Shown one piece after another: positions 40,027 to 44,738 of a stretch of 64,000 nucleotides of DNA (the stretch's first letter is position 1; each line of letters opens with the position of its first letter). The DNA is taken from the NCBI GenBank assembly GCA_017470485.1, contig JAFUYQ010000014.1, forward strand, positions 1 through 64,000. The letters run 5' to 3'. Below the pieces are notes generated by a model. It searched no databases, was not told the DNA's origin, and saw only the letters and a program-made list of their open reading frames with translations. This DNA is from Synergistaceae bacterium. Lineage in GTDB: Bacteria > Synergistota > Synergistia > Synergistales > Aminobacteriaceae. Made by a program: the position numbers and the translations under genes.

Positions 40027-40749
40027 TCATTTCGTGTACATACTCATGACTTCTTCGGTGTAACTGCCGTCCTCACCCCTGACGTAAAGCGGAGGCATTA
40101 ATGTTAATCCGTCCCCTGCGTTCTTAATGCACTCGATGAGGAACACCGCTGAATTATAGTCCTTCTTCGGGTAAACAGGCCGTAACCTTTTGGGAATTAT
40201 CCTTCGACTCCTCATTGAGAACATGAATACATCAAGTCTTTCGCTCTTGAAGACAGCGAATAATCTTCCGTTTGACTTCAGGACTCTGAAAGCCAGTTCG
40301 GCAGTATCGTCAGGAGTGCAGGAGATTTCGAGCCTTGCCGATGAACGCGAAGGGTCTGGGGATTCGCGCCCTGCCGATAAAGATTCGTAAGGCGGATTAA
40401 TCACGAGGACATCAAAATTTTCACGGGGAAGAAGATTTTTGTCTCTGAGGTCTCCGGCTATGAACTTCACGCGGTCTGAGAGGCCGTTATTCTCAGCGTT
40501 AGTTACAGCAAGGCTGACAAGATTATTCTGAATCTCTATGCCCGTAACCTGAATGTTCCCGAACCTCTGGGCAAGCAGCAGCGATATTGCCCCCGACGCG
40601 CAGCCAGCCTCAAGAACTTTCCGTGTCCCCGAACGAATCTTCACCCAATCGGCAAGAAGCACAGTGTCCATATTAACTCGCGGGCCTGTCAAAGGCTGAA
40701 GGAGTTTTACCTTCCCGAAGAGAATATCATCGAATGTCGTATCAGGCAT
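40027..40749 (-). CDS. tRNA1(Val) adenine N6-methyltransferase-like (TrmN6/YfiC)
   Basis: 240 residues from ATG 40749, which overlaps the smc stop (ATGCCTGA). It has the SAM loop VLEAGCASGAISLLLA near 44-59 and the N6-adenine/glutamine methylation motif NPPY near 118, typical of YfiC. Longer frames into smc have no ribosome binding site. YfiC relatives methylate A37 of tRNA1-Val, though small-molecule substrates cannot be excluded. The usual partner in many bacteria is rsmI, which lies two genes downstream. Confidence 0.88.
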   Translation of the reverse strand: MPDTTFDDILFGKVKLLQPLTGPRVNMDTVLLADWVKIRSGTRKVLEAGCASGAISLLLAQRFGNIQVTGIEIQNNLVSLAVTNAENNGLSDRVKFIAGDLRDKNLLPRENFDVLVINPPYESLSAGRESPDPSRSSARLEISCTPDDTAELAFRVLKSNGRLFAVFKSERLDVFMFSMRSRRIIPKRLRPVYPKKDYNSAVFLIECIKNAGDGLTLMPPLYVRGEDGSYTEEVMSMYTK

Positions 40750-43700
40750 AATTTTCAGGGTTAATCCCGACAGTTGCGGACAGTCCTGCCTCAACCATCG
40801 TTACTCCGTAAATCAAATCTGCGCGTTCCATAGTAGCTCTCCTGTGGGTCATGGCTATAATCTGAATTGAATGCGAGTATTCCCTTGCGAGTTCAGCGAA
40901 CCTCACGAGGTTGTACTCATCGAGTGCCGCGTCAACCTCATCGAGTACGGCCAGCGAACTTCCGGCGGCCTCAAGAGTTGCGAAGATTAACGCTATTGAT
41001 GTCAATGACTGTTCACCGCCTGACAGCTGTGAGATGTTCTGAAGTTTTTTTCCGGGAGGACGCGCGAAAATTTCAACTCCCCTGTCCCAGACTGAATCGC
41101 CCTCCTGAAGTATCAATCTTGCCTCGCCGCCTCCGAACAATCTCGTGAACAATTCATTGAACCTCGTGTCAATTCTCGACATTGAGTCGGTGAATGAGCG
41201 TTCGACTTTCGAGTCGGTGTCAGCGATGAGAGTTCTTAGTTCATCGGCTGAAGTGTTCACGTCATCTAGCTGGTCGGTCAGGAAATCAATGCGTTCGGCT
41301 AATGACTGATCCTCCGAGATTGCTCCGAGATTGTATGAACCTAATGATTTCAATTCGCGTTCAAGTTTTCTGAGAGATGAAGTTAATTCGCGTCCGCCCT
41401 CAGTGGATTTAGCCTCTATGCTGTCGTAAGGGTATTTCTCCTCCCAAAGCTCTATCATCTGTGAGCATTCCGCTTCAAGATGTGATAGTTTCCCCTCAAT
41501 CTGAGCAATCTGATTCTTAACTGCTGAAACATTTTCATTAGAACGTGATAATTTCCTTCTAAGCCCTTCTGTCGTCCTCCTGAAACGTTCTGACTCCTTC
41601 TGACGCAGTGAAATCTCCTCCCTGAGTGCCAGAGCCTCGCGGTAATGATTTTTTTTCTCCTGCCCAAGTGCTGAGAGTTCGGAACGGTTTTGAGCCTCAG
41701 TCTCAATTCCTGAATTAATCTCTCTTTCAGCGCGCTCAATCCCCGAATTAACCTTCATCAGTTCGCCCTTGACACGTCCGCATAATGCCTCATTATCGTT
41801 TAGCCTCTGGGTCAGGAGACGAATCTCATTCCTGAGCGGTGAAAGTACAGCGTCAAAATTATCATTCTGAACGTCAGGAAGCCCCTCTAATTCTGTTTCG
41901 AGCGATTCGATTTTGGTTCTGTCAGTTTTGAGGGAGGCGGTAAGTTTTTGAAGTTTTGATTCTGATGATGACCGTTCATTTTTCAGTCTCTCTAAATCCC
42001 TGCCGGCCGACTTGATATTACGCTGGCCGGTATTGATTTCGCCCCTCAAATCCTCAAGCTGTGATTCGGCTTCTTCAGCTTTGAGCCTTAGATTCTTCCG
42101 GTTAAATTCCTCGCTCTCAATTTCTCCCGTAAGTTCCGGGATTTTAATCCTCAGTGCCTCAAGTCTCGATTGAATTTCATCAGCCCTTTGACGTGCGGTA
42201 ACGGCTCCCGATTTTTGACGGACAGCACCGCCCGAAATCGTTCCCGACGGCGCGAATATATCGCCTTCAGCGGTAGCGACTGGGAATTTTGCGCCAGCCC
42301 TTACGACAGCGGCACCAGTTCCGTAATCCCTGACAATCAGCAAATCGCCCATCAAGTGCGAAACTGCGTCCCTCCATTCATCATTGACGCTCACTAAATC
42401 CATAGCCCAGCCGATTACCCCTCCGCCGAACGAGAGCCTGTAATCTCGTTCTCTTGGTCTGCACCTCTCAAGCGGAAGATATGTTGCGCGACCGGCTCTA
42501 TTGGATTTCAGGAAGTCGATTCCCTCCTGAGCCTCCTCAATCGTCCTCACTAAGAGCCAGTATTGTCTTCCCCCCAAGAACGCCTCTATTGCTTCGGCGG
42601 CTTCTGGCGATGAACACGTGAAGACATCGGCAGCAATCATAGGCTTTGAACGAATGAGATTATTTTCAGCGGCCTTGAGAATAATTCTTACGGGTTCGGG
42701 GTAAAAACCTGATGTGTAAACGTCCGCATTGTTTAGTGATTGATACTGTGATTCAGAGTGGGTTAATTCGCGTCTCAATGACTGAATTTTTGAGAGGGCG
42801 TTTTGATACTCAGATGAAGCGCGCGTGAAAGCGTCCTCAAGACCTGATTTTTTTTCGCTGAGGCTGTCCAGAAGTTTTTGATGTTCTGAGAGTTGAGCCT
42901 CAAGGGTGATGATTTCATTCGATAGTGATTCCTGAGATGAGGACGAGGCGTTAATTTCGGCTTCGTTGCGCGAGATTCGTAATTTAATTTCGGCGAGGCT
43001 GTCTAAAATTTCTTTTCGCCTGTTCTGAACGGCCTGAGCTTCTTTGCGGGACTGCCTGAATTTTTCTTCCTTCTCCGAAAAATCATTCTGTTTAGCGTCA
43101 AGTTCCTTCTTTAGATTTGAGTGTTCATTCTGAGTTTTGGCCAGCTCATCGGAAAGCGAGTCCCTTTGGGATTTGAGCGAAGATAATTCCTCAGTGAGCG
43201 GTGAGCGTTTGGCCTTAATGTCCCTTACCTGTGAAGAGAGCTGAAAGGCTTTCCGCTGAACCGCCTCGATTTTCGCGTTAAGCTCCTGAAGCCGCGAGAG
43301 CCTTAAAGAATTTTCGCTGTCCTCCTTAAAATCAGCCTCATAATGATTTAATCCAAGCGTCCAAAATCTCTGCCACTTCTCCAAAACTTCAAGGCGAGTT
43401 ACCGCGATATGACGCTGTAAATCTGTATCGGACTGTTCTTTTTCGTTAGCGTAACGCCTCACGAAGTAATAATCATGCCTCAGAACCTCAAGGCTGTCGA
43501 TAATCCCTTGAGCCTGAACGGCAATGTCAACATCGTCAGCGATTTCGGAGCGTCTCACCTTGAGTTCCTCAATGAGAGTCTGTATTCTTCCTGCTTCGGA
43601 TTGAGCGTCCTCAAGTTTTCTAAGGGTATCGTCTCGTTTTTCCCTGTAACGTTCGATTCCGAAAAGAGCGTCAAGCTGTTTTCTTCTTTCCTTCGGCCTC

Positions 43701-44137
43701 TGGTGAATTGTCTGAGAAATTTCGCCCTGACCGATTAGCGCGAAGCCCTCGCCCTCAAGGCTGAAACGCTGTTTAACGCTGTCGAGATCCTGAAGGAGTA
43801 TTCTTTTTCCGTCAAGGTAGAGTGATGAGCCGTTATCCTGAGTGAAAATGCGTTTAAGGTTAGCGTGTTCGTTATCGTTCTGAAGTTTCAGCGAGACTTC
43901 GGCAAGTTCCGCAGGAGGTGAAGAACTGCTGCCCTGAAAAAGTAAATCGCTCTGTCTCGTAATCCTTAATGCTGAGGCTGACCCCTCGCCGAGAATCCAT
44001 TTCAGAGCGTCAAGGATATTGCTTTTTCCAGAACCGTTAGGGCCTACGATAGCGGTGAAACTCGGCGAGAATGTGAAGTTTGCGCCCTGCTTTCCGAAAC
44101 TCTTGAAGCCTTTGAGCCTTAATGATGAGATAGTTAT
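40742..44137 (-). CDS. smc: Chromosome segregation protein SMC, apparent AUA start
   Basis: 1131 residues with the full SMC plan: P-loop GPNGSGKSN at 32-40, N-terminal coiled coil, hinge (about 490-610, with the GGGVIGWAMDL and DYGTGAAVV region), second coiled coil, then signature LSGGEQSLTSIALIFA and Walker B LAVLDEVDAALDE. It organises and segregates chromosomes with ScpA/ScpB. No ATG, GTG or TTG exists in frame between the upstream stop (44153-44155) and codon 194. AAAGGAGG, embedded in the last codons of rdgB, lies eight bases before ATA at 44137, giving M-TISSLRLKGFKSF, the normal SMC N-terminus. ATC at 44131 is the only other near-cognate choice. The start is read directly from the sequence; AUA initiation is inference. 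Confidence 0.9.
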   Translation of the reverse strand: MTISSLRLKGFKSFGKQGANFTFSPSFTAIVGPNGSGKSNILDALKWILGEGSASALRITRQSDLLFQGSSSSPPAELAEVSLKLQNDNEHANLKRIFTQDNGSSLYLDGKRILLQDLDSVKQRFSLEGEGFALIGQGEISQTIHQRPKERRKQLDALFGIERYREKRDDTLRKLEDAQSEAGRIQTLIEELKVRRSEIADDVDIAVQAQGIIDSLEVLRHDYYFVRRYANEKEQSDTDLQRHIAVTRLEVLEKWQRFWTLGLNHYEADFKEDSENSLRLSRLQELNAKIEAVQRKAFQLSSQVRDIKAKRSPLTEELSSLKSQRDSLSDELAKTQNEHSNLKKELDAKQNDFSEKEEKFRQSRKEAQAVQNRRKEILDSLAEIKLRISRNEAEINASSSSQESLSNEIITLEAQLSEHQKLLDSLSEKKSGLEDAFTRASSEYQNALSKIQSLRRELTHSESQYQSLNNADVYTSGFYPEPVRIILKAAENNLIRSKPMIAADVFTCSSPEAAEAIEAFLGGRQYWLLVRTIEEAQEGIDFLKSNRAGRATYLPLERCRPRERDYRLSFGGGVIGWAMDLVSVNDEWRDAVSHLMGDLLIVRDYGTGAAVVRAGAKFPVATAEGDIFAPSGTISGGAVRQKSGAVTARQRADEIQSRLEALRIKIPELTGEIESEEFNRKNLRLKAEEAESQLEDLRGEINTGQRNIKSAGRDLERLKNERSSSESKLQKLTASLKTDRTKIESLETELEGLPDVQNDNFDAVLSPLRNEIRLLTQRLNDNEALCGRVKGELMKVNSGIERAEREINSGIETEAQNRSELSALGQEKKNHYREALALREEISLRQKESERFRRTTEGLRRKLSRSNENVSAVKNQIAQIEGKLSHLEAECSQMIELWEEKYPYDSIEAKSTEGGRELTSSLRKLERELKSLGSYNLGAISEDQSLAERIDFLTDQLDDVNTSADELRTLIADTDSKVERSFTDSMSRIDTRFNELFTRLFGGGEARLILQEGDSVWDRGVEIFARPPGKKLQNISQLSGGEQSLTSIALIFATLEAAGSSLAVLDEVDAALDEYNLVRFAELAREYSHSIQIIAMTHRRATMERADLIYGVTMVEAGLSATVGINPENYA

Positions 44138-44141
44138 GTGA

Positions 44142-44738
44142 TTAGCCTCCTTTCATTAGAACTGTGAGAATCTTTTTGAAAGCGTTGGTTCTGTGAGAGA
44201 TTTTATTTTTTACGTCAGGCGGTAACTCGGCGAATGTCTGATTAAATCCTTCAGGCACAAAAACAGGGTCATATCCGAAGCCGTTAGCCCCTCTCGGAGA
44301 TTGAGCGATATTTCCGTAACAGTATCCCTCAGAAATCAGCGTGAAATCGTCAGGAACACAGAGACATAACGCCGCCGAAAATCTTGCTTTCCTGTTTGAA
44401 ATTCCATCGAGCTGTGTGAGGAGCCATGACGCTTTATCGGTATCATTCCCGTGAATTATTCTTGCCGAAAACAATCCCGGCGCACCGTCAAGCGCGTCGA
44501 CTTCAAGTCCGCTGTCGTCCGCAAGGCACGGAAGCCCTGAACGTTCCGCCCATGCCCTCGCTTTTAACATTGCGTTCTCGGCGTAAGTCTTTCCTGTTTC
44601 TTCGACAATGAGATGTGAAATTTCAGGCGCAAAAATTATCTGTTCCGCAAAATCATTACCGCCTGTTTCTCTGATTATGTCAACGAACTCTTTATACTTG
44701 CCTTTATTTCCTGTGGCTATGATTAATCTGCTGAACAT
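44142..44738 (-). CDS. rdgB: dITP/XTP pyrophosphatase (RdgB/HAM1)
   Basis: 198 residues. It hydrolyses dITP and XTP to keep deaminated purines out of DNA. Motifs: IATGNKGKYKEF near 8-19, ENAMLKARAWAERSGLPCLADDSGLEVDALDGAPGLFSAR-type active region (metal-binding Glu/Asp, near 55-95), GFGYDPVFVP near 155 and KISHRTNAF near 183. The ATG overlaps the upstream GerMN stop as TAATG. Its last codons carry the ribosome binding site for smc. Confidence 0.95.
   Translation of the reverse strand: MFSRLIIATGNKGKYKEFVDIIRETGGNDFAEQIIFAPEISHLIVEETGKTYAENAMLKARAWAERSGLPCLADDSGLEVDALDGAPGLFSARIIHGNDTDKASWLLTQLDGISNRKARFSAALCLCVPDDFTLISEGYCYGNIAQSPRGANGFGYDPVFVPEGFNQTFAELPPDVKNKISHRTNAFKKILTVLMKGG

Follow-up and report, generated by a model that had tools for sequence, protein, structure and literature searches.

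A full-length smc gene with a predicted AUA start codon in a Synergistaceae bacterium

We analysed a stretch of 64,000 nucleotides from a Synergistaceae bacterium (GenBank assembly GCA_017470485.1, contig JAFUYQ010000014.1, positions 1 to 64,000; hereafter the window). Its smc gene encodes a full-length, selectively constrained Smc (a chromosome-organising condensin subunit), for which the AUA at 44137-44135 is the most likely start codon, in a place where relatives carry UUG, AUG or GUG. AUA initiation had been proposed in a first-pass annotation of this DNA and it is the best reading of three lines of sequence evidence, namely the position of orthologous starts, a 9-nt Shine-Dalgarno (SD) match and purifying selection on the codons that precede the first ordinary start. 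The features on which the argument turns are the following:

40742..44137, minus strand: smc with predicted start codon ATA, 1131 codons plus stop, identified by its TIGR02168 match and full-length orthologues
44135..44137, minus strand: ATA, predicted smc start codon, on the column of the orthologous TTG, ATG and GTG starts
44146..44154, minus strand: extended SD GAAAGGAGG, 8 nt before the ATA
44153..44155, minus strand: in-frame stop TGA upstream of smc, with a second stop, TAA, at 44156-44158
43556..43558, minus strand: GTG, codon 194, the first ordinary start in the smc frame and the place where the 938-aa database protein P0001 begins
44142..44738, minus strand: rdgB (RdgB/HAM1 NTP pyrophosphatase), TIGR00042 match scoring 179 bits (cut-off 145.35)

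The smc gene and its start region

The smc product matched the TIGR02168 profile with 648.5 bits, above the curated cut-off of 567.35, over its whole length (residues 3-1125 aligned) and with both ATPase halves, as expected of a bacterial Smc. The translation contains GPNGSGKSN and LSGGEQ...LAVLDEVDAALDE, and the final stop is a TGA ending at 40742. On the minus strand the start region reads ...TCTAATGAAAGGAGGCTAATCACATAACTATC..., which in the smc frame corresponds to TAA (44158-44156) TGA (44155-44153) AAG GAG GCT AAT CAC ATA (44137-44135), followed by ACT ATC TCA TCA TTA AGG CTC AAA GGC TTC AAG. Direct reading confirmed two claims of the first-pass annotation: no ATG, GTG or TTG lies in this frame between the stop at 44155-44153 and the GTG at 43558 (codon 194), leaving no ordinary start near the expected beginning of smc, and the P-loop GPNGSGKSN is encoded ahead of that GTG in an unbroken frame.

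The strong SD that had been noted eight bases before the ATA at 44137 was found as well. The 9-nt match GAAAGGAGG has a spacing of 8, the proper one, and includes AAAGGAGG at 44153-44146, 8 nt ahead of the ATA. Matches of 9 nt or longer preceded 2 of 51 other open reading frames (ORFs) of the window, as called by a rough script, and the predicted fold of the region was unremarkable (z 0.12). The same annotation had placed the site inside the end of rdgB. This holds for the SD, which is contained in the last rdgB codons (ATG AAA GGA GGC TAA), but not for the ATA, which lies past the rdgB stop TAA (44144-44142) and is separated from it by 4 nt (TCAC). With so short a distance from the rdgB stop and an SD lying within rdgB, translational coupling of smc to rdgB is plausible.

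Orthologous starts, constraint and singularity of the ATA

We then compared the smc starts of the family. An smc match was present in 52 of 81 genomes, comprising the window's own genome, 48 others in which the start was read, one unresolved (G055) and two not fetched (G076 and G080); smc occurred in all 20 family genera and in 36 of the 38 genomes outside the window's genus. The named relatives were metagenome-assembled genomes titled Synergistaceae, Synergistales or Fretibacterium sp., and the isolate names of several point to ruminants (goat rumen or goat reticulum, sheep, red deer). The 48 starts were TTG (38 genes), ATG (6) and GTG (4). In 47 of these genes the assigned start was codon 9 before GFKSF, so that alignment put the ATA on their common start column, while the remaining gene (G022) had an ATG one codon later. 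TTG is the prevailing smc start among the genes read, a preference that may reflect selection for low output of Smc.

In a tree of the first 720 Smc residues, the window smc was sister to that of G026 (TTG, support 95/93) and next to that of G023 (ATG). An ATA would require two substitutions from TTG and one, a transition, from ATG. Start-codon labels clustered on this tree no better than shuffled labels, and smc start codons therefore switch often. In the congener G023 (locus L005), codons 2-193 likewise lack an ordinary start but smc initiates at ATG, so the lack of a fallback start is by itself not rare. As regards the SD, AAAGGAGG preceded 7 of 10 TTG-started and 0 of 5 ATG-started smc genes of the window's genus (7 of 15 congeners overall); since the species are related, this pairing of weak codon and strong SD is only suggestive.

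The codons preceding GTG-194 were the more constrained part of the gene. Against nine congeners, the proportions of nonsynonymous (pN) and synonymous (pS) differences over codons 2-193 were 0.087-0.218 and 0.61-0.83, respectively (0.087 and 0.663 against L033), while pN in the rest of smc was 0.212-0.312. At the 425 columns that nine relatives keep invariant, the window smc had 6 private changes, as against 2 to 45 in the nine others, and the 1131 codons of the window smc contained no stop; neither the frame breaks nor the relaxed constraint of a pseudogene were seen. With pN far below pS and few private changes, the region before GTG-194 therefore evolves as protein, without visible decay.

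Genome-wide scans addressed how exceptional this start is. The pattern AAGGAGG-N5-9-ATA occurred at 30 places of the assembled genome and a reversed control pattern at 55; among the 30, only at smc did the ATA begin a long frame that has no ordinary start in its vicinity. Since it was unique among these places and lies on the column of orthologous starts, the signal is more than chance. An equivalent scan for ATC and ATT found 74 places (75 sites in the script; control 74). Frames of at least 60 codons without an ordinary start in the first 15 were flagged, and the four candidates so obtained were all discarded, since an ordinary start lay in frame 2 to 25 codons ahead of each. The strong-SD sites of the assembled genome, the only ones scanned, thus gave no sign of a general use of AUH starts, and within this scope the smc ATA is a single-gene exception. 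As to an altered initiator tRNA, no UAU anticodon was present among the genes named by ARAGORN (38 tRNA places). One tRNA gene had initiator hallmarks, and its anticodon is CAU. The genome's own infC (locus L082, genome G000, contig C28, around 64,300) apparently starts at TTG behind AAAGGAGGAGGAATTA. Both scpA and scpB were present with open frames, scpA having its ATG in the expected place.

Smc-ScpAB in the genus and alternative explanations

The genus set comprised 43 genomes (G000-G042), the window's own and 42 congeners. A true smc was detected with TIGR02168 in the own genome and 15 of the 42 congeners (16 of 43); 14 of these scored over the cut-off and the two others reached 555 and 393 bits. 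The other 27 genomes yielded no true smc, their best TIGR02168 E-value being 7.4e-12. ScpA was found in exactly the same 16 genomes, whereas ScpB had one occurrence more, in G004, which is 80% complete. All three proteins went undetected in 26 of the 43 genomes, several of them 99-100% complete. The comparison gene rdgB was found in 41 of 43. In the window, smc is followed by one further gene relevant here:

40027..40794, minus strand: tentatively named TrmN6-like methyltransferase gene, lying downstream of smc (best NCBIfam match TrmN with 71.7 bits, below the cut-off of 350)

In 15 of the 19 smc-less congeners read, trmN6 came immediately after rdgB (L153, L159, L162, L163, L165-L169 and L174-L179), smc being cleanly missing from a gene order that is otherwise retained; this adjacency was not seen in the other four (G004, G007, G009 and G035). 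On a 27-species RdgB+GerMN tree the smc pattern required 6 changes, of which at least 4 fell on branches with good support. As few changes were needed in 63 of 500 shuffles, and the absence counted for G004 may be false. Repeated loss is the simplest reading, and Smc-ScpAB has probably been lost several separate times in the genus, a substitute condensin not having been searched for.

Given these apparent losses, both tuning of Smc and early decay are reasonable explanations for the ATA. A start-codon mutation could have silenced or nearly silenced smc in a species that is beginning to lose condensin, apparently like many of its congeners, as the matching absences of smc, scpA and scpB, the changes on the species tree and the rdgB-trmN6 junctions would suggest. 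We consider this unlikely, though, as the frame of 1131 codons is unbroken and shows few private changes (6 at 425 invariant columns), the frames of scpA and scpB are open, the SD is long and well spaced, and AUA gives measurable output in S. aureus (PMC13009471). Tuning is favoured over early decay because the gene and its SD are intact.

Several observations weigh against initiation at AUA. None of the 48 other family genes has ATA at the smc start, so that the non-canonical codon is not conserved, and 11 of the 48 have a further in-frame ordinary start upstream, for which reason these starts are assigned rather than proven. Outside the genus AAAGGAGG preceded smc in 0 of 33 readable genes, though 28 were TTG-started; the pairing of weak codon and strong SD is hence limited to the genus and no family rule. 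The anti-SD sequence used for matching is an assumed one, and no own 16S rRNA was found. The selection test has synonymous sites near saturation and averages a long branch, and thus cannot date the ATA. Finally, the assembly is a draft, 86% complete, in which the smc contig has 200,934 b.

This last point, together with the ordinary starts in 48 of 48 other genes and the single transition that separates ATA from the ATG of G023, could indicate a sequencing, assembly or consensus error hiding an ATG or TTG. Such an error appears improbable. The sister gene in G026 has TTG, from which two wrong bases would be needed, and the 938-aa GTG-started protein P0001, identical to the window product from codon 194, heads a 90%-identity cluster of three member sequences on five contigs, the longest of 205,234 b and so longer than the window's own. 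This would fit an ATA in more than one assembly, though one of the five contigs may be the own. Beyond this cluster, no protein exceeded 71% identity among the best 120 matches. The genome-contig search showed no smc locus above 71% (the own species may be left out of that search), and the search with the N-terminal fragment of smc nothing above 62%; the rdgB search returned two clusters at 94-95% identity.

P0001 itself begins at the GTG at 43558, the first ordinary start, which has a 4-nt GAGG 8 nt before it. That Smc is really made from there, 938 residues long and lacking the Walker A half, is nevertheless very improbable, since codons 2-193 are under purifying selection and more conserved than the rest and 48 relatives begin 193 codons earlier. 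An Smc without its P-loop should have a dead ATPase. Considering the strong purifying selection on codons 2-193, the database protein is probably a truncation. Another N-truncated smc was noticed among the matches, P0021 (1055 aa, 65% identity), which lacks the first ~63 residues and lies on a 23,965-b contig; it could reflect the edge of that contig or another case of a non-canonical start.

A frameshift out of rdgB near GGAGG, giving an RdgB-Smc fusion, is just as hard to credit: the rdgB stop does come after the GGAGG, and from 44152 onwards the smc frame has no stop, but no slippery heptamer was seen by eye (no systematic search was made), the fusion would extend the conserved Smc N-terminus, and in G026, G040 and G032 smc lies apart from rdgB yet starts on the same column. 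Six congeners (G014, G015, G016, G022, G023 and G041) carry rdgB immediately ahead of smc. The rdgB stop, located in three of them, was 4 nt before smc in G023, overlapped it by 4 nt in G022 and was 32 nt before it in G041.

Proposed mechanism and known systems

Under AUA initiation, the 9-nt SD would hold the 30S subunit over the AUA, and the initiator fMet-tRNA (anticodon CAU) would match two of its bases and mismatch the third. Ribosomes terminating on rdgB 4 nt upstream would raise the local supply of 30S subunits. The output of smc would be well below the level of an AUG start, keeping Smc scarce, and would depend on the stringency of IF3. A wider reading, which we put forward tentatively, is that of a half-way state: Smc-ScpAB would be dispensable and repeatedly lost in the genus, and here kept but throttled at translation, its dose following rdgB translation and IF3 stringency. 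The elements of this reading are the AUA start, the near-maximal SD and the rdgB stop 4 nt upstream.

Common gene callers seek ATG, GTG and TTG, and the database Smc of this organism lacks its first ATPase half, an example of how databases can lose a conserved domain. The gene also adds a condensin to the short list of genes apparently starting at AUA, and a genus with apparent repeated loss of Smc-ScpAB offers a natural series on life with little or no condensin. No report of an smc AUA start or of smc loss in Synergistaceae appeared among the titles and abstract openings listed in the literature searches, several of which gave 8-15 of many hits.

Within the family, the TTG-started smc genes share the gene and the start column with the window smc and differ in having an ordinary start codon. 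The E. coli infC gene starts at AUU, and the AUH start of infC is linked to autoregulation by IF3. The first-pass annotation had drawn this analogy, which stands as far as mechanism is concerned, as both genes have a start of the AUH type, other than AUG, that should respond to IF3. It fails as IF3 feedback, of which there was no sign: the smc product is not IF3, so there is no feedback loop, the own infC apparently starts at TTG, and none of the 48 other smc genes read has an ATA start. IF3 discriminates in vitro against weak pairs at the third position (PMC10158994, in passages that do not treat AUA with CAU). In Streptomyces, the GTC start of sigR is repressed by IF3, as experimentally tested (PMC5472188); sigR resembles smc as a single gene with a non-canonical start, while codon and gene differ. 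An ATG to ATA variant of rpoS in E. coli O104:H4, said to reduce RpoS (PMC12864459), likewise places ATA on an otherwise normal gene, but as a variant of one isolate. S. aureus has AUA starts in infC, ccpN and citZ, and the ccpN and citZ reporters, in which the start codon was weak, attained roughly 10% of the AUG level in poor medium, with ccpN reaching up to 30% in rich medium (PMC13009471). Besides the AUA, ccpN shares with smc an extended SD at proper spacing (PMC13009471). In contrast, the ccpN and citZ starts were shown by ribosome profiling and reporters, whereas that of smc is predicted from sequence in one species; S. aureus and B. subtilis have the non-canonical start of ccpN in common (PMC13009471), and the smc ATA belongs to a single species and a condensin gene. 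The predicted AUA start of smc adds to a known kind of start a gene in which it was not expected.

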